64,000 bases of DNA, taken from positions 62,001 to 126,000 of the forward strand of contig JAHQIY010000034.1 in assembly GCA_019054805.1 (NCBI GenBank), in the 5' to 3' direction. The translations under genes were made by a program, and so were the position numbers. The stretch comes from Brachionus manjavacas (taxonomy: Eukaryota; Rotifera; Eurotatoria; Ploima; Brachionidae). The notes under the pieces are model-generated. The model saw nothing but the letters and a program-made list of their open reading frames with translations. It was not told the DNA's origin and searched no databases. Positions 15,001 through 33,349 of this stretch are shown one piece after another (positions within the stretch are counted from its first letter, which is position 1; each line of letters begins with the position of its first letter).

Positions 15001-15073
15001 TCTTTCCTTGACAATAAATATTGACCGTTTATTTATGAAAACTTCAATCACATCAAAAAATATAGTTTCATGA
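1..15073 (-). repeat. 2.46-kb satellite array, left block (six full units plus a partial)
   Basis: Head-to-tail copies of one about 2.46-kb unit. A fixed anchor (aataagatcataatct) recurs at 1, 2464, 4928, 7395, 9854, 12313 and 14775, giving spacings of 2463, 2464, 2467, 2459, 2459 and 2462 bp. Units are nearly identical; those at 9854 and 12313 share private variants (for example a cgggtgtctc substitution near 10801 and 13260), which shows recent local homogenisation. The minus strand of each unit carries short 60-84-residue open stretches that correspond to decayed LINE-type polymerase sequence seen better in the right-hand array. No intact gene is present in the block; the short open frames repeat with the unit and contain no complete domain. 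The last unit is interrupted at 15073 by the transposon. Confidence 0.97.
15065..15073. repeat. 9-bp target-site duplication, left copy
   Basis: The sequence gtttcatga abuts the left terminal inverted repeat and is repeated immediately outside the right one at 33341-33349. Uninterrupted satellite units read gtttcatgagaatttag at this place, so one copy is the pre-insertion site and the other is the duplication. Confidence 0.95.
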
Positions 15074-15130
15074 GGGGTTGTGAAGTTCGTTTCAATTCGA
15101 TCATTTCAATTCAGCAAAACTTGAATAACT
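15074..15130 (+). repeat. Left terminal inverted repeat of the transposon
   Basis: Begins ggggttgtgaagttcg. It matches the reverse complement of 33284-33340 at 55 of 57 positions; the differences are at repeat positions 30 and 43. Similarity fades beyond position 57. Loosely similar AAGCAAATTT-type subterminal motifs follow at both ends. Confidence 0.95.
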
Positions 15131-16014
15131 TTTAAACGGTTTAATATTTTTTAAAAATTTTGAATCAAGCAAATTTAAGCATGTTTGCTCAATATTTTCC
15201 CAAATTTTATAAATATTATCTAATATAAGGAAGCATTATCTAATAATTTAAAAATAAAAGTGAAGTTTGTTTTGCAAATTAATAAAAAAACAAAAATAAT
15301 GTTATGTTTATTTTAAAATTAAACACTCTTTTCAAGATATTATAAGTTATTAAAATAAAAATGTCAAAAAAGTTTTTACCAAATATGAATTAACAATGAG
15401 TAAATTTGATTAAATTAGGATATAAATTAGTAGACCCTTTTAAATCGAAGTGATATATAATTTTTCATTTTAATTTATTTATAGGATTAGAAAACTTAAT
15501 TTTTTAATTGCGAGGTAATAAATATTAATCATTTTCTTTTAACTTACCTTACTTGATATAACATGTAAGTTTTATTTGTAAATAATTGTTTTTGCCTTGA
15601 TTTTCAATGTCCCCATTTAAATTGCATTTCACTATTTAACTCAACAGCTATTTTGACAATTTGCAATGTTAAATTCAGAATGAAAGCAAATAAAAATTTT
15701 TGGTGCAATTTAAATAATAAAAAAAAAATTATTTAAATAATAATAAATAAACAGTGATTTTGATTGCTCGCAACTATAATTAAAATAAAAATAATTTTTT
15801 TTTCAATTTATTAAACATATAAAAAATATAAAAAAATAGAAAGAAAATAAACTCAAAATCACTAATATTATTCTTTTTCATCAAAAAAGCGATTTTCATT
15901 TCATCTCATTGTATTACTAATAAAATATCCTTAAAATTGTTGAAAAAAATCAGCTAAATTATGTAATTTCAACAATTACAAATTTAATATTTAAAATATC
16001 TTCCTTTATCGCTT
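15131..16014. other. AT-rich subterminal region without a recognisable gene
   Basis: Very A+T-rich sequence just inside the left inverted repeat. I see no open frame with coding character on either strand. Long A and T runs and short AAGCAAATTT-type motifs are present. It probably holds transposase-binding and 3' untranslated sequence, but nothing specific can be shown. Confidence 0.6.
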
Positions 16015-16039
16015 GAAATGCTTAATGAGTAAGCATTTC
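16015..16039. promoter_or_regulatory. Perfect 10-bp palindromic arms around a 5-nt spacer
   Basis: The arms gaaatgctta and taagcatttc are exact reverse complements separated by atgag. It could be a binding site for an element-encoded factor or a short hairpin. There is no functional evidence beyond the symmetry. Confidence 0.4.
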
Positions 16040-16053
16040 CTGTTCTCTCTTAG

Positions 16054-16137
16054 TACGCTCGTTTAGATCGGGAAAAACAAGCATTGTTGGTAATAGGCAA
16101 AAAAGGACAGGATCGTGTCAAAACGAGAATTAACTGA
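16054..16137 (+). CDS. Possible plus-strand terminal exon (27 codons), unidentified
   Basis: A pyrimidine-rich acceptor (tcctgttctctcttag) is followed by an open frame of 27 codons ending in TGA. The peptide is basic (for example DREKQALLVIGKKGQ). No upstream partner exon was found on this strand, so it may be an orphan captured exon, a remnant, or chance. The opposite strand also has a protein-like stretch but lacks a usable acceptor. Confidence 0.25.
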   Translation, partial: YARLDREKQALLVIGKKGQDRVKTRIN

Positions 16138-16206
16138 ATTTCGAAAATTCAACTCTCTTTTTGTTGTAACTAACAATTCTAATTTCTTTAAGACAGGATT
16201 ACTTGT

Positions 16207-16418
16207 TTAATTCATATTGAATTTTTTAGAACATAATGATCTTTTCATCCTTTCAAAAGGCATTTTGAATACATTTAAGTTTTTCACAAAAAGAAATATT
16301 GCTTTTCTACACAAACAGTCAATAAACGATTTGGACACTTCCAATTCCTTTTTTACAGTCCCTTCCAACAAGCTGCTTATTTTTTCACTCTTCCGTATTA
16401 GCTTTTTTAACATCTGTT
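16207..16418 (-). CDS. Possible minus-strand terminal exon, about 70 residues, lysine-rich
   Basis: An open frame on the same strand as the other element genes follows a plausible acceptor (gatttctgaaag) at 16419-16420 and ends in TAA at 16207-16209. The predicted product is K/E-rich and amphipathic (segments such as KISSLLEGTVKKELEVSKS). An overlapping plus-strand frame (16217-16474) is equally long. I prefer minus because of gene co-orientation and helical composition, but neither strand has homology I can name. No upstream exon is assigned. Confidence 0.3.
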
Positions 16419-16530
16419 CTTTCAGAAATCAAAAAAGCCAGACCAATCTAATCGAGCAGATTTCCGGATTTTGAGCGAAAAAGCAGGACATTTTAAAAAT
16501 TTAAATTTGAAAGAGAGGGTTAAAAATTGA

Positions 16531-16578
16531 ATTTTTATTAGATCAGAATAGTTAATATGATTCTGATCTAATAAAAAT
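16531..16578. repeat. Perfect 19-bp inverted repeat (hairpin)
   Basis: Arms 16531-16549 and 16560-16578 are exact reverse complements around a 10-nt loop. A further aagagagg / cctctctt pair flanks the arms, with about 11 extra bases on the left side. It lies 210 bp beyond the stop of the GPxGG gene and could act in transcript 3'-end formation or be a remnant of a small fold-back insertion. Confidence 0.7.
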
Positions 16579-16787
16579 ACCTCTCTTGATGAAATTACAT
16601 TAAATAAGCTAGATTTATTCCAACTTTCTTAAAAAATTTTTAAAAGTAATACAACGGGAAAAATAAAAAACTCATTTTAGAATAAAAAGAATAATATCAG
16701 AAAATCTTCAAAGCAAGATGAAAAAAAAAAGTAAAAATAAAAACTTAAACAAAAATAATAATTAAATACAAAATAACAAGGACGTTT

Positions 16788-17212
16788 TTATATGTAGTTT
16801 TCTAAATATTTATATTCAGCTAAAAAATTTATCTGGAGTCTTTCTTTTCCACGAATATAATAAAGTGAACCACTTGGATTTTCAAGAAAAAGCCCTCCTT
16901 GTGGCCCAAGATAAACGTTTCTGCCACAGCGACTACGGCTACTCACAAATTCACCAACTTTTATTTTCTCGGATGTTCGCGTACAGAGAGGCTTTAAATT
17001 AATTTTAATTTTAAATTTTAAAAATTTTCATTTTATTAATAAATTACTCTTGTCTCTTTGGTATCTAGATGGGGAAAGGTTTTCTCATCAAATCTTTCTT
17101 TTAAAATTTTTTGCTCATTTTCCTTTAATTTAAGTAAAGTTTAACAAAGATTTTACGTGGATATTTTTCGTCTTTTTTATCGTAAATATTTTTATCAATT
17201 TTGAAATTGAAG
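16788..17212 (-). CDS. Partial gene with GPxGG basic-adaptor-like C-terminus
   Basis: Three 3' exons are phase-consistent: 17212-17157, 17097-17048 and 16991-16788, with introns of 59 and 56 bp. The last exon encodes 67 residues before TAA and contains VYLGPQGGLFLENPSG followed by SLYYI. This resembles the short VYxGPRGGxYY...G...YI module of PBCV-type basic adaptor domains found in some viral and mobile-element proteins. A cysteine/arginine-rich stretch (SSRSRCGRN) precedes it. The first visible exon must begin in phase 2, and I could not find its partner. The preceding homeodomain gene ends 156 bp upstream in a different phase, so I treat this as a separate gene whose 5' end is unresolved. 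Function unknown; nucleic-acid binding is a guess from the basic residues. Confidence 0.55.
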
Positions 17213-17368
17213 CTTTAATTTGTCTAAATTTTTCAAATTATGTCTTTAATCTTTCAAAGAAATTCAAAGAATTATGGTATCCCTTTTATATAAAAAATGT
17301 AAAAAAACAAAGTATTCAAATATAAGGATAAAAATTTCAAAGACGAAAAATTAAAAGTTTATATTTTT

Positions 17369-20300
17369 TTAAATTACCAATTGTTGAATTTTTGCTATAA
17401 GATCATCGTAATGGTTTTCATTATTTTCATTGACAAACTCTTCCTTATTATTATTCATATTCTTCAAAAATAAAATGGTCTTGAGATTATTAAAAAAAAA
17501 TTGAATTACTTTTTTATTATCTGAATTTTGTTCATCAAATAAATCGCTTTCCTCATGCAAAAAAGAAAACAAATGACTCTTTTTTAAATCTCCCGGTTTG
17601 ATAAAGTTGTTAAGATATTCATTTTCCGATTTGAGATCTTTTATTTTATCTTCGAAAAGATCCTTGTATTTGATAATTTTAGCATTGACAGGATTTTTCG
17701 GACAATTAGCAAAACTTTAAATATAATGATTACTTTGATAATTTAATAAAAATGAAATAATATCATACCAATAATGTTTATTACGACCAATCTCAGTGTT
17801 TCCAGAACCATCACAATTTTTTGAAGGACATTTTGATTGATTATTTGATATTATTGTAAAATCATTAAAATCTAGATTTTGAGATTAATTAAAATCTTAA
17901 TTTAACATTTATCAATTTAATTTGTAAAGTTAAATACCGTCGACAGAAACTGATAATTTGCTCCCATAGCCCTTTTCAAAATCATTTTTTCCAAAAATAT
18001 TCTGGTTATCAATGTCTTGCCAAAGGAAAGAGCTTTCATTTTTTTTGTTTTCTTTCAGAACTTAATTTATATTTAAAGATTTATATAAAATTGAATTAAA
18101 GAATGAAGTTAAATTGTTTTACTTGTTGATTTATATGACGAAAAATTTTGTTTTAGAGTTTTATTCACTGATTTGAGATCAGAAATCTGATTTTCTCTGT
18201 CATCAAGTGCCAATTCATATTCCTTTAGCTGTTGTTCTTTGTCCTTGAGCAAATCATCTTTATGCTTGATCTCTTAAAAATAAAAATAATAAAAAATAAA
18301 TAAATATTTCAACAATTATTCATCGAAATGTGATTATACCGTGATCTTTTGACGTTCGTAATTTTTCGAAACTGGCTTTCTGGTCCGATTCGAAATTCGA
18401 CGTCATACTTTTATTTTCTTGTATTTTTTGCTCTAATTCTTTTAGACGCTCATCTTTTGCTTTTAGTTTTTCATTGTTTTCTTTCAGAACTTAATTTATA
18501 TTTAATATTTAAAGATTTATATAAAATTGAATTAAAGAATGAAGTTAAATTGTTTTACTTGTTGATTTATATGACGAAAAACTTTGTCTTTGAGTTTTAT
18601 TTATTGATTTGAGGTCAGAAATCTGCTTTCTTAGTTTCAGTATTTCTGAATCGCTTGATGACTGCATTTTTATATGGTTGTCATTTTTAATTTCAAATTC
18701 AGAATTTAGGATAACCATATTTTCCTCAAATTCGCTTTTATATTTTTCTACATTTTTTGAAAAATTTTCCTGATTGCAAGAAATTACTTTTAAAATTATC
18801 ATTAAAATTTTTGAAATGCTAAGTAAAGATGCTGTGTCTTAATTACTTGATTCGAATTCTTCAACCGTCTTCTTAAGCTCAGTTTCATATGAATTTTTTA
18901 GTTTTTCATTATTTTTTATTGCTTCATTTAGTAGTTCCCTCAAATCGGATTTTTCTTAAATTAAAATTTGAAAAAATTAAATGAACAAACAAAAGGGAAA
19001 AAAATATTTTAAAAATATACCTTTTTCATTTTCATTGTATATTGATAAATTTTCTTTTTTGATATGTATTTCGGTTAATTGTTCTGATTCTAGAAATATA
19101 TTTTAAAAAATTAGTTTTCACAAACTTTAATTTTACCTTTTGATAACGAATCTTTTAATTCAGCAATTAACGAAGAATTATACTTTATTGTGGACTGCAA
19201 TAGTGAATTTTCTTTTTGAATATCTGCATTTGTCTTCTTTAGGTCCTCATGATCATCTTCTAAATTTTTGAATCTAATCATGCTTATCTTAAGTTGTCTT
19301 TTAATATTTGAGGTTTCTTGCTCTGATAACTCCTGTTCTTTTACAACTTTTTCATAATCCTCTGAAACATTTCTGTACAACACTTGTTTTTGAGTATTCT
19401 TGTCCTTTTGAAGAAAACTTAGGTTCAATTAATTAAATATTTATCAAAAACTAACAAGTAAAATTTTAATTTCCTCTTGTAAATCTTTTATTTTGATTTC
19501 GAGTTGCTCCTTTTCTAAAGCAAACTGCATTTTCATTGCATTCAGCATGTTTTCAACTTCAAATAAATTATCAGTGTTTTTAAAAGATGTATGCTGATTT
19601 ATTGATATTTGTTCATTTAATTGCACGTAATTTGAATGGAGAATTGACTCGATGTAAGGAAGGTCTTCTATTAGTTCATTTTTTGAAATATCAATGTAAT
19701 TTATCTTTTCGTCTTCTGTAGATAGACTTGATATATAACTATCCTTTTTCACCGTGGATGAAATATCGCCGTTGTCTTTCAATAAGCTGGAAACTTCTTC
19801 AGCAAACTGTGAGTTAAAAATTTCACCGTCCTCCTCTACAAAATCTGAAATTTCACCATCTTCTTTCTCCGAGCTAATAACTTCTTCATCATCAAACTGT
19901 GAGCATGAGATTTCACCGTCCTCCTCCACAGAATCTGAAATTTCACCATCTGTTTTCTCCGAGCTGATAACTTCTTCTTCATCTAACTTTGAGCATGAGA
20001 TTTCACCGTCCTCCTCCACAGAATCTGAAATTTCACCATCTGTTTTCTCCGAGCTGATAACTTCTTCATCAGCAAACTGTGAGCATGAGATTTCACCGTC
20101 CTCCTCCACAGAATCTGAAATTTCACCATCTTCTTTCTCCGATCTGATAACGTCTTCTTCATCAAATTGTGGGCATAAAACTTCACAGTCCTCTTCCACA
20201 GAATCTGAAATTTCACCATCTTCTTTCTCCGATCTGATAACTTCTTCATCATCTAACTCTGAGCATGAGATTTCACTATCCTCCATCACTGAATCTGAAA

Positions 20301-21230
20301 TTTCACCATCTGTTTTCTCAGAGCTGAAAACTTCTTCTTCATCTAAATTTGTGCTTAAATTACCATCATCTCTTGTTTCAATCGTTTCGAAAAATTCTTT
20401 GCTTTTTCTAGTATTTTGGTCCGCTTCTTCTTTCATGTCTATATTCATTTCAAGATTTTGCATGTTCATTAAAGATTTTTCTTTAAATCTTTTATTTGAA
20501 AACCAATTCTGGACAAAAAATTTTGGCATAATTAATGATATTTTTTTTTATAGTTTAATTAATTTATTAAATAATTAACTTACACGAATTTGTTGTTTTT
20601 GATATCGACATTCCAAATAAAGAATTATATTATTTATATCTGAATGATTTGGTTTGTTTTTACGCTCATAATAAGTATTCAGATAAATCAAATCATTCTT
20701 TTCAAAAATGCTCTTTCTACCTCTTTTTTTTTTCTGAAAAAATAAAGTTGGTGAAAGAGGTGTTTCTGATTCGGAATTGGATTTAATAACTGTCCCTTTT
20801 CTTTTTCGTCCTGTTGTTGTTGGATGTTCTTTATTAAAATTATTGAACATTTTAAAAAAATTTTAACAAAGAAAATCTTTACGAGATTGTTGATTTATTT
20901 CTGAACTTCCTTTAAAAGAATTCATTATCTTCTCTTTGATGCTCACAAAGGCTTCTAAAGGGTTTTTATCAACATATTTCTAAAAAAAATAATTAAATTT
21001 ATAATTATAATTTAATAAAACAACCTTTAAACAATTGATCGAGTTATTAAAAGATTTTTTGGGTAGTTTGCGAAAAATTTCTTTAAAACTTCTATGTATT
21101 CTTCCTGAATTTTTGGTCTCACAATATTAAATTCACTTCTCGATTTCCTTACAAATGAATTTCCAGTAATTTTCTTGGCCAAACTAGCCAAGGTTTCGTT
21201 TGACTTAGACTTCCTGAAGTTTCCGTTCAT
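17369..21230 (-). CDS. Homeodomain-acidic repeat-coiled coil-C2HC zinc finger protein (13 exons, 1033 aa)
   Basis: Exons: 21230-21033, 20979-20883, 20810-20584, 20508-19456, 19404-19137, 19089-19021, 18954-18847, 18786-18559, 18480-18340, 18272-18123, 18051-17938, 17871-17769, 17714-17369. All phases match and the sum is 1034 codons. A homeodomain spans about residues 127-188; its recognition helix QQIRNWFSNKRFKEK is assembled across an intron, with the W-F-x-N-x-R signature and about two extra residues before helix 3. Six 30-residue acidic repeats (about 231-420) follow, then a long K/E/L-rich coiled coil. A MYT1-type finger C899-x4-C904-x12-H917-x5-C923 lies near the C-terminus. Likely a nuclear DNA-binding protein of the element, perhaps recognising its ends. 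The first donor (GTTTAA) is weak; a shorter form could start at 20850 (948 aa). I know of no family with this architecture. Confidence 0.85.
18051..18640 (-). repeat. Tandem duplication of an exon-intron-exon segment inside the homeodomain gene
   Basis: The stretch 18051 to about 18205 is repeated at 18480 to about 18640 with an offset of 429-436 bp; the only indel is 7 bp in the intron. The copies include the same intron and give paired coiled-coil modules (SDLKSVNKTLKQNFSSYKST and SDLKSINKTQRQSFSSYKST), each spliced to a KN-rich exon. The duplication preserved phase and lengthened the coiled coil. Confidence 0.85.
19771..20340 (-). repeat. Six-copy 90-bp coding minisatellite (acidic 30-aa repeat)
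   Basis: A ctccga(g/t)ct-containing register recurs at 19861, 19951, 20041, 20131, 20221 and 20311, exactly 90 bp apart. Each unit encodes an acidic Ser/Asp/Glu motif of the type EKTDGEISDSVEEDGEIS. The exact multiple of three preserves the frame. Such acidic blocks often act as activation or histone-binding segments; that role is inference here. Confidence 0.93.
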
Positions 21231-21402
21231 TTTTTCGTTGGTTTAGATTTTTTAAAATCTAAATATCAAGTTTTTAAATCAAAATTGACTATCAATTGAA
21301 TTATAAAAAAAAAGTTGTTTATAAAGACAACAATATGGCAAGCAAAAAAAAAAAAAAATTTTTAAATTTATTATTTTTCAAAATTATTATTATTTTTTAG
21401 AG

Positions 21403-21408
21403 TTTATT
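21403..21408 (-). promoter_or_regulatory. Candidate polyadenylation signal of the transposase gene
   Basis: An AATAAA hexamer lies 21 nt after the TAA stop of the transposase-Ulp1-RING gene on the minus strand. The spacing is reasonable, but the hexamer is frequent by chance in this AT-rich sequence. Confidence 0.35.
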
Positions 21409-21428
21409 TGATCTTAAAAAATACATTT

Positions 21429-24400
21429 TTAAGAATGGTTGTATTTTAAGAGTAAGCAATCAATAATTTCACATTGCTCGCATTCGTTTTTTTTTAAGCA
21501 TTTTGAATGATAAGAATGAATGCAATCAAAACCTAATAATTCTTGATCGGAATCTTTCTTACCACAGATACAACATAAATTCACTTTCCCTACATATTTC
21601 AAATTTTCTTTATATAATGCATCAAAAATCACTTTTCTAAATCGATATGGGCATTTTTCTCTTATTTTTAGCTCTTTTTCTCTTACATCAACATTTAATA
21701 AGCTTTCGAAAAACATACAAACAAAAACACCACAGCTTACTCCATCATTTTGCAAAGGATGTACAAATTTCCTTAAAATCCATTTTTTATCACATAAATC
21801 CTTCCGATAGGTGCAAAACAATCTAAAAATTTTCAAAGGATTATTATATATTGAAGAAAGCAAGCTTTTTCCTATTACTTCCACTTTTCAAAATAGATAT
21901 TATCATTCTCGGCACCTAATGAATCTAAGAACGAAAAACTTTGATTCTTCACATCAACAAAGAAAAGACACCAATGATGACGGAGTGGATCATAAACCAA
22001 GCCAGCGATCATTGAATAGGAATTCAAATCCTACAAAGATAATTTAAATTATATTTAAAAATTATGTTATTTATAAAAAATTTAAATTACTTCATCAAAA
22101 ATATTCTCACTCAAGAACATACCATTAAAAATTTTACTTGTCGAAAAATAATCAATAATTCTTATGTTAAATGTTTGGCCTTTAGTTTTGAAGTAATTAA
22201 AAATAATCTAAAAAATAAAAAATTACAAATCAAATTCTAAAGCTAAAATTTTTTTAAAAAATAATATTTACTTCGTCACTTAACAGGTCATTATTTAGAA
22301 GCTCATAAACATTTTTGCAAGTCATTTTCGAATAATTTGAATAAAAAAAGATGTGGTCCCTGAAACAAATCGAAACTTCTGCTCTAAATTCGGAATTCTC
22401 AACATCAATTAATGGTATTGAAAACAATTCTGATTTTCCACGAAACTGAGTTTTGAGGGAATCTTCCTGCTTTAAATTGTCAATCCCAAAAGTAAACTTG
22501 TTAGTAAAATATATTCCTTTTTCTTTTGTTATTTTTTTTTCTTTTTTAAACTCCCATTTTTCTTCTTCCTCGGAATTGTTGTGTCCATCTTTACTTTTAG
22601 AGAAATCGATACAATCTTTTTCATAAAACTGTTTAAATTTCATAGAAAGATAGTTGTAATATGGAATTACAATTTCGCTTGGAAAAAGAAGACGCTTAAA
22701 TTTCAACCGTTTATTTATGTCTAGAATATTATTTCTGAAATATCCAAACCATGATTCTACAGGATTATTAGTCAATCGTGTTAGTTGAGATCTTTGAGGA
22801 AAATTGTCTTTATCTAACGAAATTAGAATTCCACTCCATAAAGGTACCAAATGGATCCTTTTTTCTATTATTTTCATCAAAATTGGTTTGTAAAACTCAT
22901 TTGTTTTAATAATTTGATCCTTAGACTCTTCTTTTATGCATTTTTTATAAAAACTCAGCCGTTGCTCAAAGAATTTTGTAAATGGTGAATCCAAAATATA
23001 ATTTTTAGACATATCATTTGGGAAATATAAATTTTCTATTCCAGATTCCTTTGAAGTTATCAAAAATTTTCGATCAAATTTTTTAAAAAGTTGATTCAGC
23101 CAGTCATAATTCCTAATGCTAATCTCTATATTCATTCTAACAAGCGAACGAAGTAATAACTGAGATAATTTAGGTTGACAAAAGATAGTGACCATATCTT
23201 CCAAATTCTGATTAAATTCATCAATCGATGAAGAGTTTTGAAGCATTGTAAAGCAATAAATAAATGCTGCACGCATCTTATCGGTAATTTTTCCCTTTGT
23301 TATATTAATATCATCAAGATCATCGATTATTATTTTTAAAAAATGAGTTGAACAAATATAGATTTTTGAATTTAAAATTTTCGAAAAGGAATAATCTTTC
23401 AAAACGGCAATGTTGAAGCTTAATTTCAGATATTGAATAATATCACAGTTTAAAATGATCCTCAACAGTGCGTTTATATTTGCCCAGCTAAAATCTGTAA
23501 CAATGATTTTAGGATAATAATCGGGTTTTAATTTCTTAAATGATGACGTAATTTTTAAAAGGTTGATAGATATATTTGTTGTGTCGTTTTCAGTTGAAAA
23601 AAAATCTGCTATTGGAATCAATGATTTATTTATAGGATCATAACTTACAATTGAATATAGTAGTGGCTTTTTTTGATTGAAAATAGCAGGAATAAAAAGA
23701 CCGGAAGCGTCAAAATACCAAACTGGATTTCTCTTCTGAATGCTATCCCACATTCTTAATTGAATTTCCGAATAAATGTTCATGGAGAAAGGCGATATGG
23801 ATATTTCTTGAATAAATCCTTTTATCCCTTTTTTACAACTGCTTTTAACTAGCAGGTCAAATGAAGATTTCGCTGCATCAGCATCCGATCTCACTTCATT
23901 GAATAATTTAAATCTATGTGTATGCTCGCTTGACATCTTCCTAATAACTGAATAATCGATCGGATGGTAAGTTTTGATATGATTTTGGGCTCTGAAGTTA
24001 GTAATCCCCATCGATTTAATTTCTTGAGACATTAACTCTCTTTTTTCTCCAATAATTCTTTTGTTTTTAGGGTTTACTACACACGATTTGTGATTTATTT
24101 TATATTTTTCCAAGTTGATAATTAGTTCGTCCATTTCGAAAGACGGAATATTAAGTTTGAAGGAGTTTTCACATGATATACAGGAAAATATACCATTCCA
24201 ACAATGTCCTTTTTTCCTTCCATTTTCTTTCCTAAACCAGTTTGAACCATATTTTAGCCAACACAGAATACCAATAGCCTGAAATTTCAAAGATATAAAT
24301 TCACAAAATTCGGCATTGAATCGTTTTCGACTATCCATTTTACTTGTTTGAATAAATTTTTTCAACTTTTTTTTATCCTTTTCAGAAAAACGAATAATTT

Positions 24401-24677
24401 TCTGTTCCTTTTCGAGTCTAATTTGTTTGAACTTGTTCATTACATTTGTTTTATACTTTTTGGTGTCTCTTTTCCACATTGTATGTAAAAACAGTGAATC
24501 TATAAGTACATAAGCACCAAATATAAAAAGGCAAAGCCTTCCCCATAATGTATTTTCTCCACTATATGAGCCAACAAGTTCACATGGCGTATGAGCATTC
24601 TCAATCAAAAATTGAACTGATTTATCAACAATAACGTTTAAATCAATGTTTGATCGTCCTTTTCTATTTTTACTCAT
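21429..24677 (-). CDS. DDE transposase-Ulp1 protease-RING-H2 fusion (4 exons, 1022 aa)
   Basis: Exons 24677-22272, 22207-22091, 22030-21879 and 21822-21429 are separated by introns of 64, 60 and 56 bp; all phases match and the sum is 1023 codons. The N-terminal part has Cys/His pairs (C166-x2-C169, H196-x2-C199) like MULE DNA-binding fingers. The RNase H-like core shows D323 (WYFDASG), D395 (IIVTDFSWANINAL), C442-x2-H445 and E641 (NNPVESWFGYF), the motif order of Mutator-like transposases. Splicing then adds a Ulp1/SENP (C48) domain: H859 or H860 (HHWCLFFVD), D877 (FLDSLG), Q916 and C922 (QNDGVSCGVFVC). A RING-H2 finger follows: C975-x2-C978, C992-x-H994-x2-H997-x2-C1000, C1006-x2-C1009. All catalytic residues look intact. 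It would cut and paste the element and may remove SUMO or attach ubiquitin; the last part is inference. Exon 1 alone, unspliced, would give an 807-aa transposase ending soon after the junction. Confidence 0.9.
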
Positions 24678-25238
24678 TATTTAGTTTAAATAATAATTTT
24701 TCTTAATAATTATCTAAAATATCTAAAATTTTTTAAAAATATAAAATATTTTTAGAAATTTTTTTATGTAATGAAATGGCACTGTATTAGAAAAGCAATC
24801 GTCAAAATAGATTGGGGAATGGAATTTTAAAAATTGTGTGTATTTTCATTTTTTTTCAAATATAATGTGTTTATCCCGGGCTTTTTGAATCGATCTAAAA
24901 AGCATAATTATTTAAAACAAAATTTAACTTAATCAAAATTAGTCTTTAACTACAAAATATTAAAAAATAAACAGAAGAAAAAATAAATATGGAAAAATGG
25001 AATCTATTGAAGTTTTGTATGACCCTAGACGATTAATTTTGTAAAATAGTGTTCTTTTAATACTTTATGGCTTTTATCATTTACAGAAATTCATAAAATG
25101 TAGAGAGTATTTGTTTAAACTAATCTTTAATTTTAATAAAATTTAATAATTCTTTTAAAAATTTTATGTCGAGTGTCTAACAATTTTTTTCTGATTTTAT
25201 CAAACTCTGCACTTAAATTGAAAAAAAACAAATTACAG
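24678..25238. other. Intergenic AT-rich region upstream of the transposase gene
   Basis: No coding frame seen on either strand. It should contain the minus-strand transposase promoter just above 24677, but no clear TATA or initiator can be singled out in this composition. Confidence 0.6.
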
Positions 25239-25301
25239 TGTTTATGGTTTTTGTCTGTTCGTGTCCGGACGTTCTCTCGTTTTCTTTGTTGCTGCCGGAC
25301 T
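25239..25301. repeat. 63-bp direct repeat, copy 1
   Basis: Matches 25546-25608 with a single C/T difference. The copies flank a 244-bp filler segment and share the higher-GC composition of the captured dynein-like fragment to the right, so copy 1 is probably a duplicated edge of that fragment. Confidence 0.93.
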
Positions 25302-25545
25302 ATTTCATTATATTCATTTTAATATAATGAAATTAATTATATTCATTATATTCATTTTAATTTTTATTATTATATTCATTTTCCGATTTGAGATCTTTTA
25401 TTTTATCTTCGAAAAGATCCTTGTATTTGATAATTTTAGCATTGACAGGATTTTTCGGACAATTAGCAAAACTTTAAATATAATGATTACTTTGATAATT
25501 TAATAAAAATTATATAAATATATATATATATATATAAATAAATTA
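25302..25545. other. Filler insertion with templated DNA between 63-bp repeats
   Basis: Composed of a ttcattatattcatttt-type simple repeat, an exact 139-bp copy of the element's own homeodomain gene (25372-25510, from 17615-17753), and a TA microsatellite (about 25511-25540). Two flanking 63-bp direct repeats plus patchwork copied from another locus are typical of template-switching double-strand-break repair. Confidence 0.8.
25372..25510 (-). pseudogene. 139-bp copy of exon 13 and adjoining intron of the homeodomain gene
   Basis: I see no mismatch to 17615-17753. Because it includes the exon-intron boundary at 17714/17715, it was copied from DNA rather than spliced RNA. It is too short to code for anything useful. 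The identity implies a recent event. Confidence 0.93.
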
Positions 25546-25608
25546 TGTTTATGGTTTTTGTCTGTTCGTGTCCGGATGTTCTCTCGTTTTCTTTGTTGCT
25601 GCCGGACT
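25546..25608. repeat. 63-bp direct repeat, copy 2
   Basis: Partner of 25239-25301. It is contiguous with the captured exon-bearing segment to its right, so it is probably the original copy. Confidence 0.93.
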
Positions 25609-25660
25609 CTTTTTTCTTTCTCTCCGTATTTTCGTATCTTTCCAATTGACAATAGCATAC

Positions 25661-25744
25661 CAAAGGTGTGCGTTGGTCCGATTCGTCGAACATTTTCTCC
25701 AAGTCAAGTTTAACTCCTTCGATAAATTTTTCGCCAATCGAATC
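25661..25744 (-). pseudogene. Captured exon resembling dynein heavy chain AAA6 region
   Basis: An 84-bp (28-codon) open exon lies between a possible acceptor (gttag at 25745-25749) and a GTATGC donor (25655-25660). It reads DSIGEKFIEGVKLDLEKMF followed by a DESDQRTPL segment. Dynein heavy chains have a similar stretch (FIEPP..DL...F.DS...TPLIFVLSPG) just before the AAA6 P-loop-like motif. The match is short and the diagnostic LSPG part would be in the next exon, which is absent. Keeping intron-like flanks implies capture of genomic DNA. Confidence 0.5.
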
Positions 25745-25850
25745 GCTAACTTATTTCAGATCGAAAGATAAAGAATTTTATTTAGACGGATTCTTTGCCG
25801 ATTGGAATTGAGGCTCAATCCTTCTTGACACATGATTAAGTTTTGAGATA

Positions 25851-26228
25851 TTAAAAAAACAAAAAGTCAGGTTCGGTGAATGGAATTTCGAAGGCCGATG
25901 CTTGATTGTCGGCTATGAGCTGATTTGAGGGTTGAGGCGAGTTGTTCTCTGTGTTGGACATCTGGTTGAATACCTGATTGGACTCTTTGGACTGATCAGA
26001 GTGCAGTGAATGATTGTTTGACTGGTAGAATGCCTTTTGAATGTTGCAGGAGTATTGGCCTTCTGGGCTCGAATAGTGGCTTTGGTAGTTGGTCTCAGGA
26101 ACTTTCAATAGTTCGTCGAGAACAAATTTTGAGTCTACAACGCTCAAGTCAGGTTCGGTGAATGGAATTTCTCTGATTTGAGGCGCGATTTTGAAGGACT
26201 CGATTAGGCCGGATTTGAGAAATAGCCT
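25851..26228 (-). pseudogene. Captured open fragment, Ser/Asn/Gln-rich, unidentified (about 125 codons)
   Basis: An open minus-strand frame of clearly higher GC content than its surroundings runs from a stop or acceptor-like site at 26229 (agaatag) to a TAA at 25851. The peptide includes SFKIAPQIREIPFTEPD and a low-complexity S/N/Q region. The octapeptide EIPFTEPD occurs twice, 94 codons apart, encoded by an exact 26-bp direct repeat (25864-25889 and 26146-26171). No start codon or complete gene is visible. Composition and position beside the dynein-like exon suggest captured host sequence. I do not recognise the protein. Confidence 0.5.
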
Positions 26229-26799
26229 CTATTCTATTTTGTTTTTGCAAGTCATCATTCAATATTTGTTTTTTATTTTGAGAATTTTCTGATTCTTTAA
26301 ATTTTGAATTTTTGTTAAATTAATTTTTAGAAAAAAATATTTATAAAATTAAATGGTTTGAATTTAATATATTTAATTGTTAACCAAATATATATTTCAA
26401 ATTTTATCTATAGAATTTTATTTAAAATTATTTCTTATTTTAAATTATTATTTTTTAGGCTATATTTTGATTAAAAAAAATTTCAAATTTAACTTTTGGT
26501 GTTATTTTCTAAGCCATAAAAAATTAATTTTTTTGCTAGAAAAAAAAATTGATGTAAAAAATGAATTGACTGATTGACAGTAAATGTGTTTATTATACAG
26601 ATTTTTTACCAAAAACATGAATTTAATTGTTAAATCATTAATAGATAAATTTCAAGAAAAGTTTTTGATATTATTTTAAAAATTTGAATTCATGTTTCTG
26701 ATAAAAAATCTGCTATATTTTAAAAAAGATTTCTATTGTAATAAAATATCTACTTTTAAATGACTTTTTAAAAAGATAAAAAATTATTTAAAAAAATGT
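26229..26799. other. AT-rich spacer without recognisable gene
   Basis: Homopolymer-rich sequence. A 66-codon plus-strand open frame (26377-26577) is dominated by Phe, Leu, Ile and Lys, as expected from chance translation of A/T runs. Confidence 0.6.
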
Positions 26800-27040
26800 T
26801 TACTTTGTCTTAGCTTGAAGAGATACTAGTTCAAACACCCTTTGTGCTCGAATTTTACGCTGCATTTGTGTAAACTGGATGGTGACGGATGATTTTTTTC
26901 CTTTAAATTAATAAATATTTTATATTTAGACCAAAATTACTGATATTTACTGTTTTTTGTTCGGTATCTATTTCAAATTAAAGAAAGGTTAATTTCTTCC
27001 TCTTCTTCACAGGGTAATTTCATAAATTTTAATTATTTTA
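26800..27040 (-). CDS. Possible short two-exon gene or remnant, unidentified
   Basis: The minus strand has a locally less AT-biased open stretch ending at TAA 26800-26802 (peptide FTQMQRKIRAQRVFELVSLQ). It is preceded by a possible 3' splice site (tttaaag), a donor GTAAAT about 50 bp upstream, and an ATG-led acidic start (MKLPCEEEEEINLSL). The frames of these pieces do not join cleanly, and a second frame through the last exon (EKNHPSPSSLHKCSVKFEHK) is equally open. This may be a decayed gene. Confidence 0.3.
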
Positions 27041-27180
27041 TAAGAACAAATTTGAGTGATAAATAAAATAATAAAATTTGATAAAATCTTTAATAATTTT
27101 ATTTAAATAGGATAAATTTAAATTTAACTATTTAATATAATAAGAATAATAAAAAAATCAATCAAAACAAAAATAAAAAA

Positions 27181-28515
27181 TCAGTATTTTTTAGATTTCT
27201 TTCCTAGTTTATCAAAAAAACCATCAGAAATTTCTAAGGCTTCATTCGTAGCTTTGGAAATATCAAATTTTTTCCCAAAATAAGCTCTTTTTTTCATCTT
27301 ATGATATTTTTGATAGACTTTCTGGCTATATTGTCTTACAGCTGTTGAGCAGGAACACAATGATGCACTTTCATATGTTCTAAATAATTTTTAATTTTAT
27401 TTTTAGAAGATCAAAATGTAATTTTTCTTACGGTTTATATTTGACCCTACGCTTTTTATCTGGAGCCCATTGAATTTTGAGTTCTAGCTTGTTTCTGATA
27501 CTATCAAACTTGTGGCCGATAACTTTTTCAACCTAGTAGAAAACTTATTAAAAAGAAATATTGATTGAAGTTAAATTTTAAAATTTAAAAAAGTTACCTT
27601 GAAAGATGTATCCTCAATATTAGCACCAGTTAGATCCCTATAACTTTGAGCAAGATTTCGAAGAGTACCTTTTTTGTGTATATTTTTTTTTTTTGACAAC
27701 TTTTTCTTTTTTGTCAAAGGAATCGAATTTCTTTTGCCATTATTATCACTTGAGTTTCCTTGATTTGTCAATTCTTCTGAATTAATTGGCGTTTTTGATC
27801 CCTCTGAACCAATTGGCGTTTCTGATTCGGACAGTTGTTCATTTATAATTTCTGACAAATTAATGCCGGCTGGAGCTTTTAATTTACAACTTGTTAATAT
27901 TTTTTTAAAAAATTTGATTTCTACCTTCAATTAAAGGGACATCTCCTAATGGATTTTGAATTGTTTGACTTAATTCTCCAGGAGTCTGGACTTGCAAATC
28001 ATTTTCTTTATTTTATAAGTTTATTTTTAGTTTTTAAATTTTTATTTTAAATTTTTTACTTAGAATTAATTTTTCGCTTTTTTTATCCCAGGTAATGAAG
28101 CACTTATTTTTAAACCATTCCTCGAAAGATGGCTTTTCTATGGAACCTTCTAAGAAAATAGAAAAAAAAAATTATTAATTAAAAAATTAATTAAATTAAA
28201 TCATTACGCTGAAATCTCTGACGGATTTCTCTTGTTGACAATTTTTTTGAAGATTGTTATTTGCAAATACTGAAGAGCAGACAACCAGGAATTTTTTATA
28301 AAATTTTTTGATTTGACTTGGTTTCTTAGAATAAAAGATTAGAAAAATTTTTTTTTAATTGAATAAATTACAAATTCTTCCGGATTGAAAAATCTTTGTT
28401 TTAAAGCAGTTGAGTCAATTGATTCTACTTCAGTTGAATTAACTTAAAATGAATTGTTAAAATAATAAAAAATTTTAAAATCTTTAAAGTTACATGAAAC
28501 TATGCTTTCAGCCAT
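27181..28515 (-). CDS. Basic protein with chromo-like segment (8 exons, 313 aa)
   Basis: Exons 28515-28494, 28442-28372, 28324-28208, 28132-28060, 28005-27925, 27875-27598, 27532-27432 and 27379-27181 have introns of 47-75 bp; all phases match and the total is 314 codons. The start is MAESIVS. The middle is Ser/Glu/Asn-rich, then a lysine cluster (about residues 177-193, a probable nuclear localisation signal). Residues about 213-250 resemble a chromodomain strand pattern (FKVEKVIGHKF then LELKIQWAP), with the central W236 but lacking the usual aromatic cage. The C-terminus has a Cys pair (SLCSCS) and basic residues. Splice acceptors repeatedly use the AG of an AAAAG tract, as in other genes of this element. 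A chromatin-targeting role for integration is plausible by analogy with chromodomain integrases, but the domain call is tentative. Confidence 0.75.
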
Positions 28516-29034
28516 CTTTGTATCTTAGAATAATTAAATATTTTCTAAAAAAAAATAATAATATATTAACTTATTTTATTCTATCTTTATAGAGAAACAT
28601 AGATAATAAACTAAATTAAATCGAAATCAATTATTTTTTCTTAAAGAGACTGAAGAAAGTGAATATATCTTGCTCGGAATCTTAAATTTGAATAAAGCAA
28701 TTTTCCTGCAATGATTTTGGCTGGTAAATTTTTAAATTTTCTAAATTTTTTTGGGGTTAATCAGTCATATATTCGCGCTTTATATCTAAAAAATTCATCG
28801 AATCTTTTGAAATTTTTGTGACAATATTTTAACCATTTTCATGTTTCTGCATTTAAGCCAAAATTAAAACTCGGTCAATGTTAGAAAAAAGGACTCAATT
28901 TTTTCTCATATGAATAAATTGAGTTGGATCAGACAATTAGTAAGTCAAAATCTGCAATTGCTTGTGTCGTTGTTCAAATTATCCAAGATGCCAGTTGGAG
29001 AAAAAAACGTTTTACTCACGAAGTCTTTTTATAT
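28516..29034. other. Spacer with a 9-bp hairpin, no recognisable gene
   Basis: AT-rich sequence upstream of the chromo-like gene, which should hold its promoter. A short inverted repeat (actcaattt at 28893-28901, aaattgagt at 28916-28924) is the only structure noticed. Confidence 0.5.
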
Positions 29035-30377
29035 TTCTTTGTTTTGTAAATAAAAAATTTGACATTTATCTAAAAACTAGAAAATTTTTAAACCAGAACA
29101 AAATAAAAAATATTTTTTCATTCTTTTAATTTTAGTGTAAAATATGATCAATTAATATTTATTTATGAAGCAAAAAATCTAAATCATTCGTAAATCAGAT
29201 CACGAAACATGCTTACGCATGGCTCTAGAATCGTTAAGAAAAACGATTCGTCTGGTAGAATTCAGATTGTCAGCAATTTAGATAATTTGTTTTGTAAATA
29301 AAAAAATTGACATTTATCTATAAACAAGAAAATATTTAAAACAAAAAAAAATAAAAAATATTTTTTTATTCTTTTAATTTTAGTGTAAAATATGATCAAT
29401 TAATATTTATTTATGAAGCAAAAAATCTAAATCATTCGTAAATCAGATCACGAAACATGCTTACGCATGGCTCTAGAATCGTTAAGAAAAACGATTCGTC
29501 TGGTAGAATTCAGATTGTCAGCAATTTAGATAATTTGTTTTGTAAATAAAAAAATTGACATTTATCTAAAAACTAGAAAATTTTTAAACCAGAACAAAAT
29601 AAAAAATATTTTTTCATTCTTTTTAATTTTAGTGTAAAATATGATCAATTAATATTTATTTATGAAGCAAAAAATCTAAATCATTCGTAAATCAGATCAC
29701 GAAACATGCTTACGCATGGCTCTAGAATCGTTAAGAAAAACGATTCGTCTGGTAGAATTCAGATTGTCAGCAATTTAGATAATTTGTTTTGTAAATAAAA
29801 AAATTGACATTTATCTAAAAACTAGAAAATTTTTAAACCAGAACAAAATAAAAAATATTTTTTCATTCTTTTAATTTTAGTGTAAAATATGATCAATTAA
29901 TATTTATTTATGAAGCAAAAAATCTAAATCATTCGTAAATCAGATCACGAAACATGCTTACGCATGGCTCTAGAATCGTTAAGAAAAACGATTCGTCTGG
30001 TAGAATTCAGATTGTCAGCAATTTAGATAATTTGTTTTGTAAATAAAAAAATTGACATTTATCTATAAACAAGAAAATATTTAAAACAAAAAAATAAAAA
30101 ATATTTTTTTATTCTTTTAATTTTAGTGTAAAATATGATCAATTAATATTTATTTATGAAGCAAAAAATCTAAATCATTCGTAAATCAGATCACGAAATA
30201 TGCTTACGCATGGCTCTAGAATCGTTAAGAAAAACGATTCGTCTGGTAGAATTCAGATTGTCAGCAATTTAGATAATTTGTTTTGTAAATAAAAAAATTG
30301 ACATTTATCTATAAACTAGAAAATATTTAAAACAAAAAAAAATAAAAAATATTTTTTTATTCTTTTAATTTTAGTGT
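29035..30377. repeat. 248-bp tandem repeat array, about 5.4 copies, inside the transposon
   Basis: The landmark gttttgtaaataaa recurs at 29041, 29289, 29537, 29786, 30034 and 30280 (spacings 248, 248, 249, 248, 246). Each full unit contains two small perfect hairpins: catgc-ttac-gcatg, and gaatcgtt-aagaaa-aacgattc. Copies differ mainly in an A/T tract, with two alternating variants. No coding frame spans the units. The array could be a binding array for the element's own proteins or an expanded minisatellite. Confidence 0.95.
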
Positions 30378-30438
30378 TTATCCAAAATAGAATTTTCCTT
30401 TTCTTTTTAAAAAAAATCAAAAATCTTTATAAATCTTA
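30377..30438 (+). repeat. 62-bp direct repeat, copy 1
   Basis: Identical or nearly so to 30650-30711. Begins tttatccaaaatagaatttt. It marks the end of the 248-bp array; copy 2 sits inside the fold-back structure. Confidence 0.9.
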
Positions 30439-30517
30439 ATGAATTAGTTAACACACGCCGTCTTAAATTAGTTAAATTTTAATAATTGGAGAATTATATT
30501 TAATATTTGGGGAAAAA

Positions 30518-30888
30518 AATTTTGGTTTTGTGAATTTCAAATGTAAATCGGACAAAAATTCTTCAATTTTAAAAAAATTAAAATTAAATTTGATAAAAAA
30601 TAATAGAAAAAATACCGCAACATGGTTTATTGCACCTTTTTTATCCAAAATAGAATTTTCCTTTTCTTTTTAAAAAAAATCAAAAATCTTTATAAATCTT
30701 ATTTTTTCTTTATTTTCTGTCTTTTTATACATAATTAAATTTTTTTTGGTAAAAAAGGTGCAACAAAGTATGCTGCACTAAGTTGCAGTATTATTTTTAT
30801 AAATTTTTATCAACTTTATTTTTAATTTATTAAAAAATGAAGAATTTTTGTTCAATTTGCATTTGAAATTCACAATACCAAAAAAATT
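30518..30888. repeat. Fold-back structure with about 140-bp imperfect inverted arms
   Basis: The left arm (about 30518-30655) matches the reverse complement of the right arm (about 30741-30888). Shared blocks are tgtgaatttcaaatg, acaaaaattcttca, ctgcaa/ccgcaa and ttgcaccttttttatcc/ttgcaccttttttacc. The loop (about 30656-30740) contains the second 62-bp direct repeat. This resembles a small nested fold-back or MITE-like insertion, but no flanking duplication is clear. Confidence 0.7.
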
Positions 30889-30957
30889 GTATTATTTTAT
30901 TCTAATTTTAATCGTCCTTTAAATTTTATTTTTTATAATACAATTTCGGGTACTTAC

Positions 30958-31080
30958 AGTAACCATTGTTTCCAATCTAAGCTTATGATGAATCAACACT
31001 GGCTTATCAATATTAGGCCATCTAGATTTAGAAAGCATTGACAAAAATCTATTAGTAATAGCCGAAAATTTTTTGCTAGC
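30958..31080 (-). pseudogene. Captured exon-like fragment, unidentified (41 codons)
   Basis: An open minus-strand frame (for example FLSMLSKSRWPNIDKPVLI) ends at a canonical GTAAGT donor at 30952-30957. It is fused on its 5' side to the dynein-derived segment in another frame. Base composition is less AT-rich than the element's own spacers. The intact donor implies genomic rather than mRNA capture. Confidence 0.45.
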
Positions 31081-31155
31081 TCATTGCTTTTCTCTCATTC
31101 TTTAGCTCTAGAATGCTGGTCTCAACTTCTTTTGACCAAACATAGTTCAGCCCCC

Positions 31156-32114
31156 TTCCTCAATGGTTCTCATTTTGCTCTCAAGTTCTTGTTCTTTCTT
31201 GGCCGATTTGCATATTTCCTCTATTTCATGCGAGTGCAAGTCGAGTCCAATGTCAATCAGATCGTTTAGCTTGAACACAGCGGCCTCCAGTCTAAAAGCA
31301 CTTTTGGTCACTTGCATTACTTGGAGCTAGTGGCGATTTCGGATCTATTTTTCATTTAGCAAAATAAGTATGGGCAAAACATCTATGTATTTTTTGAGAG
31401 CTTTTTCAGGTCGAAATAAGCCTCCCAATTTTCTTTTTAATTTTTCTGGCAAAGCTAAAAATTCCTCCCAATAGGTCTTGATATTGCTGAATGCTTTGTT
31501 GAAGTCCACATCGCTCCAAAGAGTGCTGCGGAATTGTTTGTCAAAGCTGAGAAAAACCTGGTACACTTTGTACATTTGATTGAGAAGATTTAGCTTTTCG
31601 CCAGTCTTGTCCAGCTCTGGAAACGGCTTGCACTGAAGTCCGAAAAGAATGCTTATGGAGTCGAGTGTTTTGCGTCTGGCGTCAAATGTGTCGCACTGTT
31701 TTTGGAATTCGTGAAGTGTTCTCAGGGCTTCGTAAGTCTCGATGCCGACAACTGAGGGCCAAGTTGCGTCAAATGTATTTCTGAATCTGATCACTTCGAC
31801 CACAAAGGTCTTCACTTGTTTGTCTAGCTCTTGTTCTAGAGTGTTTCTTTTGTCCTGGAGCAATGTGGAGCGCACTATTTCTGCATTTTTCATCAAATGG
31901 GACCAATTGTCTCTCAGACTTGACACTTGTTCAATTTCTTGTCTGGTCAGAATGAGCTCGTAGCGCTGTAGATCAGCGTTCTGCGTTCATCAGCGTTCAT
32001 ATTCTCAATTGGCAAGTAGATTTTGTCTATTTTGTTTTCCATGTCGGACAGTTCTTCCAAAAGTCGCAGGGCGTCATGTTGTTCCAGAGTTTGAACATTT
32101 ACCATGAGACGCTT
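31156..32114 (-). pseudogene. Captured dynein heavy chain linker (DHC_N2) fragment, broken
   Basis: About 320 codons of a dynein heavy chain tail/linker region. Diagnostic stretches are LNLLNQMYKVYQVFLSFDKQ, FRSTLWSDVDF, IRNRH (with the following Trp replaced by a stop), FRLEAAVFKLNDLIDIGL and EIEEICKSAKKEQELESKMR. Two in-frame TAG stops (one before IRNRH, one at the W of IRNRHW) and a 17-bp insertion caused by a duplicated 9-mer (31972-31980 and 31989-31997) break the frame. The motor domains are absent. GC content is well above that of the element genes, consistent with a host origin. No intron interrupts the segment, so I cannot tell whether it came from a large exon or from cDNA. It cannot make a functional motor. 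Confidence 0.88.
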
Positions 32115-32159
32115 TTACACATTTTCCCTATAAACAATACATTCTTGTATTATAATACA

Positions 32160-32640
32160 AAATAAGCTCAGTTTGCCAGTCAGATCATAGCCCAGTCCAA
32201 GTCATAAATGTCATTTTTGAACCAGACCAAAGAAATCAGCTCGACTCAAAGGAAGCAACCATTTTGACCTTAATCGAGAAAATAAGTCAAATGTATCTTT
32301 TTGATCATGAGCTGGCCTTCAGCACTACCTGGAACCCTAAGTATTTTTTGACTGAAATCGGCACTTCCATTGACAACATTGGTCAACGAATTAGCACTCA
32401 TTTTGCCATGATAGAGGAAAAAATTGGGGAAATCGGAAGCGTTTTGATAGCATCTCTGAAAACCTCTGCAAATTTTAAAGAAAATCAAAAATTACCCTAA
32501 ACGAAATGCTCAATTCGGAGCCTAAACTTACTTTTTTGAAGAATTTCTACTCAGAAAAGTTGTATAATGACATGCATAATTCGATCCTTAAATCCTTGCA
32601 ATTCTTGGCACAAGCTTGTGGTTAGGAATCGACAAATAAT
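32160..32640 (+). pseudogene. Captured coding-like fragment in opposite orientation, unidentified
   Basis: A plus-strand open stretch (about 32165-32500; peptide ISQMYLFDHELAFSTTWNPK) is followed in another frame by a second one (about 32482-32624; peptide LNEMLNSEPKLTFLKNFYSE) ending in a stop. The frame change and higher GC content suggest decayed captured sequence. I do not recognise the protein. It abuts the dynein fragment with inverted orientation, so the two were probably captured separately or rearranged. Confidence 0.45.
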
Positions 32641-32904
32641 TTGGTGAATATTAATCCAGATGGTGCTGATGCACTCTATTACTTGCGGCTTAAGTCAGGC
32701 GACGACTTGACACGGAACAATAATTCACAAAAAAGACCACTTTTGTCAGCTCGGTTCTCAGAGACACTGACTGGTCCGACAGCCATAAACTGGAAAAAGC
32801 ATTTCTCAAGTAAGTTAGAAAATATGCTAAATTTTACTTCTGAAAAAGATGCAAAGTTTATTTTAGAAAAAATTGAACCAGAAGTTAAATTTGATTTGAA
32901 TTAG
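32641..32904 (+). pseudogene. Captured coding-like fragment, unidentified (about 87 codons)
   Basis: A plus-strand open frame begins after a stop (peptide VNINPDGADALYYLRLKSGD, then LTGPTAINWKKHFSS). A strong GTAAGT donor occurs at 32811-32816 directly after HFSS, so the coding part probably ends there and the AT-rich remainder is intron or element sequence. I cannot name a family. Confidence 0.45.
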
Positions 32905-33283
32905 ATAAATATTATTAATTATTTTTTTAATTTTAAAACAAATAATTTGAATGCTGAATTTTTGTGGATTTTATTGAATAACATTTTTACTTTATTTATC
33001 TACATTTTGGTAATTTTAAGTTGTTTTTGTATTATATTTCGAAATTTGAGCTTATTTTTTAATTTTTTGAATTTTGAATAGTTATTTAAAAAGATCTATT
33101 TCATTTTGCAAAAATATCTGGATTTGATTTAATTTTTGTCTTTATAATTTTAATTTTTTTTTTTAAATGACACCTGAACGACTAATTAAAAAAAAAAAAA
33201 AAATTTAATTTAAATTTTTAATTAAGCAAATTTGCTTAATTTTTGAGCAAAAAAAATTAAGAAAAAAACTTATTCCTCTAAAT
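32905..33283. other. AT-rich right subterminal region
   Basis: Long A/T runs and a small palindromic aagcaaatttgctt motif near 33223-33236. No gene seen. It mirrors the composition of the left subterminal region. Confidence 0.6.
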
Positions 33284-33340
33284 AGTTATTCAAGTTTAGC
33301 TGAATTGAAACGATCGAATTGAAACGAACTTCACAACCCC
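33284..33340 (-). repeat. Right terminal inverted repeat of the transposon
   Basis: Ends ...cgaacttcacaacccc; reverse complement of 15074-15130 with two mismatches in 57 positions. Confidence 0.95.
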
Positions 33341-33349
33341 GTTTCATGA
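33341..33349. repeat. 9-bp target-site duplication, right copy
   Basis: gtttcatga directly follows the right inverted repeat and continues into normal satellite sequence (gaatttagtaaac). Confidence 0.95.

Follow-up and report, generated by a model that had tools for sequence, protein, structure and literature searches.

The window analysed here comprises 64,000 nucleotides of the rotifer Brachionus manjavacas (assembly GCA_019054805.1, contig JAHQIY010000034.1, positions 62,001 to 126,000 of the forward strand). Within it, positions 15074–33340 form an element of 18,267 bp with both ends exactly defined. We interpret it, with a probability of about 0.78, as a full-size representative of a family of very large cut-and-paste DNA transposons of the Mutator-like element (MULE) type that was active recently, with a MULE-like transposase of the DDE type. 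The original prediction, an exactly bounded MULE-like element with several intron-rich genes and captured exons, was supported, and the order of three genes was additionally found to recur in diverged copies. An animal MULE of 18–21 kb in which a set of three genes recurs, one of them encoding a homeodomain protein, would widen the known size and coding range of the superfamily in animals.

The insertion is delimited by target site duplications and terminal inverted repeats (TIRs).

15065..15073, no strand: target site duplication, left copy, 9 bp, GTTTCATGA
15074..15130, plus strand: TIR, left, 57 bp, also present in 356-bp miniature inverted-repeat transposable elements (MITEs)
33284..33340, minus strand: TIR, right, 57 bp
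33341..33349, no strand: target site duplication, right copy, 9 bp

The TIRs agree at 55 of their 57 bases (mismatches at positions 30 and 43), as expected from the predicted near-identity, and the 9-bp duplication GTTTCATGA, which had also been predicted, is perfect on both sides of the element. The sequence that received the insertion is a satellite with a 2.46-kb tandem unit. The joined flanks (120 bp) matched 14 satellite units inside the window, 13 over the full 120 bp at 95.8–100% identity and one over 106 bp. Empty sites therefore exist as claimed, but they number 14 in the window and not the dozens originally stated. The satellite forms a direct array over window positions 1–39887, with approximately 96–100% identity to one unit.

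We searched the genome assembly (114.17 Mb, 61 contigs, designated here by C numbers, with C34 denoting the window element) for further copies. The genome-wide end search scored the best candidates alone, and its counts are therefore lower bounds. Left ends with 99–100% identity over 327 bp occurred at least seven times, the window element included. A copy scan of 11 stretches (C34 and ten others) detected facing left and right ends in seven, and five of these two-ended copies (C34, C23, C28, C29, and C41; 4,092–21,489 bp) are flanked by perfect, mutually different 9-bp duplications. The search with the 57-bp TIRs for such copies, proposed in the original prediction together with a second copy sharing ends and gene order, was thus positive on both counts, the latter copy being C29.

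C29, 21,489 bp, perfect 9-bp duplication: gene set and order as in the window element, transposase frame broken
C28, 10,852 bp to the nearest right end, perfect 9-bp duplication: internal parts missing, right part in tandem copies
C23, 10,689 bp, perfect 9-bp duplication: internal parts missing
C41, 4,092 bp, perfect 9-bp duplication: internal parts missing

C29 and the window element share blocks of approximately 95–100% identity over their main parts, with altered tandem arrays, some gaps, and one extra insert in the comparison. The two-ended copies C14 and C30 lack a perfect 9-bp duplication; the second end of C30 is of the left type and probably belongs to a neighbour. In C12, C19, and two C33 stretches, a facing end was looked for and not found. 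MITEs of approximately 356 bp have the ends of the element, and both ends were seen in 19 of the 20 stretches fetched (the 20th was off-centre). Their duplications agreed at 9/9 positions in 14 of the 19, although three of the 19 (C7) have a common flank and are not independent. With near-identical copies, deleted derivatives, MITEs, and empty sites at hand, movement of the element becomes directly testable.

Three side observations concern these copies. The right end repeats at a spacing of approximately 5.39 kb in C28:771790-793422, and the C28 copy contains a long open reading frame (ORF) that, by eye, resembles a long interspersed nuclear element (LINE) reverse transcriptase. Of the seven copies whose left ends are near-identical, five are located less than 100 kb from a contig end, versus two of 20 MITE stretches; because the contigs differ in length, this contrast is suggestive at most.

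The analysis supported three co-oriented multi-exon genes, all on the minus strand. The original prediction had counted at least four; their co-orientation and multi-exon structure held, and their number was reduced to three. The genes and the tandem arrays associated with them are as follows.

21429..24677, minus strand: transposase-Ulp1-RING gene, modelled exons 24677-22272, 22207-22091, 22030-21879, and 21822-21429
22272..24677, minus strand: transposase exon, 802 codons, proposed DDE residues D323, D395, and E641, with C442/H445
18839..20850, minus strand: homeodomain / acidic 90-bp repeat / coiled-coil gene, model exons 20850-20584, 20508-19456, 19404-19137, 19089-19021, and 18954-18839
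18032..18629, minus strand: 429-bp tandem repeat, two units, each with an in-phase modelled coiled-coil exon of approximately 50 amino acids
27181..28440, minus strand: chromo-like gene, homology blocks 28440-28351, 28324-27923, and 27822-27226, model exons 28149-28060, 27851-27598, 27532-27432, and 27379-27181
29038..30377, no strand: 248-bp tandem array, no gene assigned to it

The transposase reading frame of the window copy is uninterrupted over 808 codons. The transposase exon is followed, across frame-preserving splice junctions, by three exons modelled to encode a Ulp1-type cysteine protease and a RING-like finger; the transposase, Ulp1, and RING parts are modelled as one spliced gene. 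The Peptidase_C48 (Ulp1) match of the spliced window model scored 31.7 bits (cutoff 20.7), and its RING-like matches stayed under the cutoff. A Brachionus calyciflorus protein (P0008) combines transposase and Ulp1 in one predicted chain, in which Peptidase_C48 scored above the cutoff (49.4 bits) and the MULE and RING matches both fell under it. We found 16 transposase homologues, and the four with a named organism are all from Brachionus calyciflorus. An automatic gene model at a looser setting was dropped, as it split the transposase exon and joined Ulp1 wrongly; the homology-checked exons were used.

In the second gene, the homeodomain (PF00046) was matched with an E-value of 1e-7 and 32.1 bits against a cutoff of 22.9, covering profile positions 2–56 of 57 in the spliced model and crossing a modelled splice junction. 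The signature helix of homeodomains reads WFxNxR, and the window model contains WFSNKRF. The gene may start further upstream, where a small frame (21230-20863) could represent its first exons, and it may continue downstream beyond 18839. The 429-bp exon-bearing unit is expanded to different degrees (seed counts of 2 in the window copy, 10 in C29, and 20 in C19), so that the length of the encoded coiled-coil protein may differ greatly between copies. A search of a 5.8-billion protein set returned no homologue of the homeodomain protein at E ≤ 0.01 among 466 candidates.

The label of the chromo-like gene is a weak one, since two homologues matched the Chromo domain (PF00385) at only 16.4 and 15.4 bits, under the cutoff of 25.1. 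The sole homologue found for this gene, Brachionus plicatilis P0017, shows 50% identity over 91% of a 220-residue model. Neither singly nor as a two-row profile did the region match a structure in the PDB, and the predicted structure of P0017 was unusable (predicted local distance difference test score, 35.5). The second, early block is frame-broken in the window copy; the C29 model reads through there. The 248-bp array varied among the four copies having it, with seed counts of 6 (window), 8 (C23), 2 (C29), and 1 (C28).

To characterize the gene set as a unit, we located each gene in the assembly. The homeodomain query gave 60 matches in 30 loci, three weak ones of which (C1, C16, and C8:4.84 Mb) possibly represent host genes; the chromo-like query gave 53 matches in 16 loci, and the transposase query at least 64 matches in 40 loci (56 of 262 candidates scored). 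The transposase loci were divided post hoc, by their best matched piece, into 19 close (≥60% identity) and 21 distant (≤43%) loci. Among the close loci, the homeodomain gene follows at 14 (same strand, within 12 kb downstream), the chromo-like gene lies upstream at nine, and eight show the complete order of chromo-like, transposase, and homeodomain genes; at three (C30:352, C54, and C58), the nearby homeodomain locus lies on the other strand only. Neither accessory gene was found near any of the 21 distant loci, where diverged versions could escape the queries. Viewed from the chromo-like loci, the homeodomain gene lies downstream within 20 kb at 12 of 16, compared with the 0.003 per locus that uniform placement would give, although some of the linkage loci are local duplicates (C2 and C23). 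This co-occurrence at close but not at distant loci indicates that the three-gene set characterizes one transposase clade of the genome. The 21 distant loci (e.g., C17:320764, C27:304199, C9:3845482, and C3:1167435), part of which have open frames of 764–831 residues, point to additional MULE-like families in the genome, devoid of the accessory genes of the element.

The ratios of nonsynonymous to synonymous substitution (Ka/Ks) were calculated against C30, C23b, C2, C58, C54, C37, C56, C12, and C19, several of which have stops or frameshifts. Comparisons with fewer than 8 differences or little sequence were excluded, which removed all those with C26, C29, and C14 and all of dynein. Of the 18 comparisons retained, 17 gave a Ka/Ks below 1, and z was ≥2 in six of the 18, the single Ka/Ks above 1 being 1.32 for the C-part of the homeodomain gene versus C30; the homeodomain gave 0.18–0.90. 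In a separate calculation, the acidic region yielded 2.49 (C12), 1.29 (C19), and 0.90 (C29) between near-identical copies and 0.21 with C30. Together with the chromo-like homologue in Brachionus plicatilis, the Ka/Ks values point to, but do not prove, constraint on the three genes.

The predicted captured exons were confirmed for an axonemal dynein heavy chain, with a donor on C2. The captured stretches of the element are listed below.

30941..32147, minus strand: captured dynein heavy chain linker fragment, frameshifted, approximately 1 kb of host exon missing
32243..32890, plus strand: captured host stretch, matching C2:1106860-1107506 at 89%
25864..26171, minus strand: short ORF segment between 26-bp direct repeats, 81–87% match to C1:5483557-5483827

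Positions 31345-31986 code for part of the dynein heavy chain (PDB match, E 9.1e-22). The donor is an 818-codon open frame from position 1109501 on C2, two blocks of which match the element at 89.8% and 92.0%; between these blocks, the element lacks approximately 1 kb of the host sequence. The source of 32243..32890 lies approximately 2 kb upstream of the donor region on C2, and this proximity suggests that it stems from the same host dynein gene. In the window copy, the stretch is inverted relative to the linker part, and its orientation is opposite in C28 and C41. Neither Pfam nor the PDB gave a convincing match for the ORFs at 32.2–32.9 kb, and only the host DNA match explains them. In four comparisons of the dynein fragment, Ka/Ks was approximately 1 in two, while one of the others showed no change and one no synonymous change; each of the four contained 1–2 frame-breaking indels. 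Because the fragment is frame-broken and its Ka/Ks is near 1 where computable, we regard it as a passenger. Segment 25864..26171 is possibly a second captured host fragment.

The clear decay of the dynein part, with its host donor, its frame breaks, and its Ka/Ks near 1 where computable, lends some weight to a rival account, in which an ordinary smaller MULE, encoding the transposase and Ulp1 only, took up host pieces in the manner of Pack-MULEs, the homeodomain and chromo-like genes being passengers like dynein. Gene capture by MULEs is known (PMC13317346), and neither accessory gene was found at the 21 distant transposase loci. We nevertheless consider this account unlikely: both accessory genes recur in unchanged order in diverged copies, the homeodomain Ka/Ks values are 0.18–0.90, and the chromo-like gene has its 50% identical homologue in Brachionus plicatilis, which may or may not lie within an element in that species.

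The transposase was classed as MULE-like on its catalytic residues, the best re-ranked match of its predicted fold, weak MULE-domain matches in aligned proteins, and the insertion signature. D395, C442, H445, and E641 are invariant across 15 aligned transposases and D323 is nearly so; a DDE triad with a C..H motif ahead of the E is a mark of MULE transposases. The MULE transposase domain PF10551 had no Pfam match in the window protein and matched four of the 15 aligned proteins weakly (E up to 0.1; at least three under the curated cutoff). When the structural matches of the predicted fold were re-ranked, narrowly the best was ISCth4 of the IS256 family, to which the MULE catalytic fold is considered closest. 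The element also has a 9-bp duplication, within the 8–11 bp of MULE target site duplications (PMC6446971), and TIRs, which are not universal in MULEs. The missing Pfam match in the window protein, the top position of Hermes in the Foldseek ranking before re-ranking with the P element and Hermes close behind ISCth4 after it, and the presence of Ulp1 in Ginger1 transposases as well (PMC2836005) would fit a different superfamily (hAT, P, Ginger, or an unclassified one) in which the RNase H core is similar and the 9-bp duplications are coincidental. Set against the duplications themselves, the MULE-domain matches in the aligned proteins, and an IS256-family transposase as the best aligned structure, we judge this reading more improbable still. 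That the element is not mobile but an artefact of the satellite, of segmental duplication, or of misassembly, as its position inside a satellite array and the local duplications at C28, C33, C2, and C7 might suggest, is refuted by the five copies with different perfect 9-bp duplications, the empty sites, and the 356-bp MITEs elsewhere with the same ends.

For the MULE-type element, we propose the following mechanism. The transposase would cut at the 57-bp ends and paste the element with 9-bp staggered cuts, and it would also move the deleted copies and MITEs in trans; the internal deletions might result from incomplete gap repair. Sequence-specific binding of element DNA, at the ends, the promoters, or the 248-bp array, would fall most plausibly to the homeodomain protein. 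By analogy with VANC, the Ulp1/RING part and the chromo-like protein may counter host silencing based on SUMO or chromatin, with the dynein fragment carried along as a passenger. A motif enrichment (k-mer) scan for a binding site of the homeodomain protein returned just (AT)n and A/T-rich words, and because it gave no binding motif, element binding and anti-silencing are put forward as a hypothesis. A bolder form of the proposal is that a giant animal MULE clade has kept three components together, namely a transposase fused to a SUMO protease, a homeodomain DNA-binding protein of its own, and a protein associated with chromatin, as one self-contained sequence-specific anti-silencing system, evolved independently of plant VANDAL/VANC; we advance it tentatively, as possible rather than probable. 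The element would provide an animal system for asking whether transposons bring their own sequence-specific counter-silencing factors, as VANDAL does in Arabidopsis.

Ulp1-bearing, multi-gene, and very large MULEs are already known in plants. Ulp1 occurs in plant Kaonashi/VANDAL and in hydra and lancelet MuDR elements (PMC13317346, PMC2836005, PMC5735166), some VANDAL elements among them (PMC13317346); the Arabidopsis Kaonashi group has three coding genes and is non-TIR (PMC13317346), and VANDAL20, a MuDR-like plant family, is termed 'monstrous' in the title of a paper cited there (PMC2836005). VANC proteins recognize motifs within the variable, noncoding tandem arrays of VANDAL elements and reverse silencing (PMC5735166). 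The rotifer element shares with the Ulp1-carrying MULEs a Ulp1 protease within the same element as the MULE transposase, and with VANDAL a tandem array that varies between copies (the 248-bp array, seed counts 1–8). It differs from the plant, hydra, and lancelet elements in the modelled splicing of Ulp1 to the transposase, in its accessory homeodomain and chromo-like genes, and in its rotifer host, and from the Kaonashi group in its 57-bp TIRs.

Among animal MULEs, a survey that covers groups such as Phantom, Ghost, and Spectre tabulates one or two ORFs where these are numbered and includes no rotifer (PMC6446971), and full-length arthropod MULEs measure 1.4–10.0 kb, mostly 2.5–5.0 kb (PMC13359780). 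They resemble the rotifer element in their MULE transposase and, for several groups, in duplications of 9 bp or 8–10 bp and in TIRs that measure tens of bp, whereas the rotifer element is larger (18–21 kb) and has a three-gene set, an unusually large cargo for a MULE-type element in an animal. Ginger1 elements likewise combine a transposase with Ulp1, introns, and TIRs, the Ulp1 being C-terminal in many families and accompanied by a PHD finger in one; they differ in their Gypsy-integrase-like catalytic domain and their length of 2.6–7.1 kb (PMC2836005). The enlarged En/Spm (CACTA) elements of Chondrus crispus (16–20 kb, 4–5 ORFs; PMC6431247) are also large, multi-ORF, and cut-and-paste, but belong to another superfamily and a red alga host. 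Pack-MULEs share the host gene fragment between MULE ends (PMC6431247, PMC13317346); those of Jiang et al. are reported to be ≤7 kb and moved by a transposase acting in trans (PMC6431247), whereas the rotifer element has its own. A Pfam scan of ORFs and models, covering part of the frames, showed neither the DNA polymerase B nor the capsid genes of Polinton/Maverick elements. Among the literature matches listed, we found no animal MULE of giant size in which a homeodomain gene recurs.

Outside the element, the orientation of the satellite flips near 41 kb, and positions 40361-58702 hold a diverged, rearranged array with approximately 89–96% identity in pieces. Positions 59436-64000 are occupied by a distinct tandem array; its unit measures 179 bp, and a higher-order period of 358–361 bp is clear.

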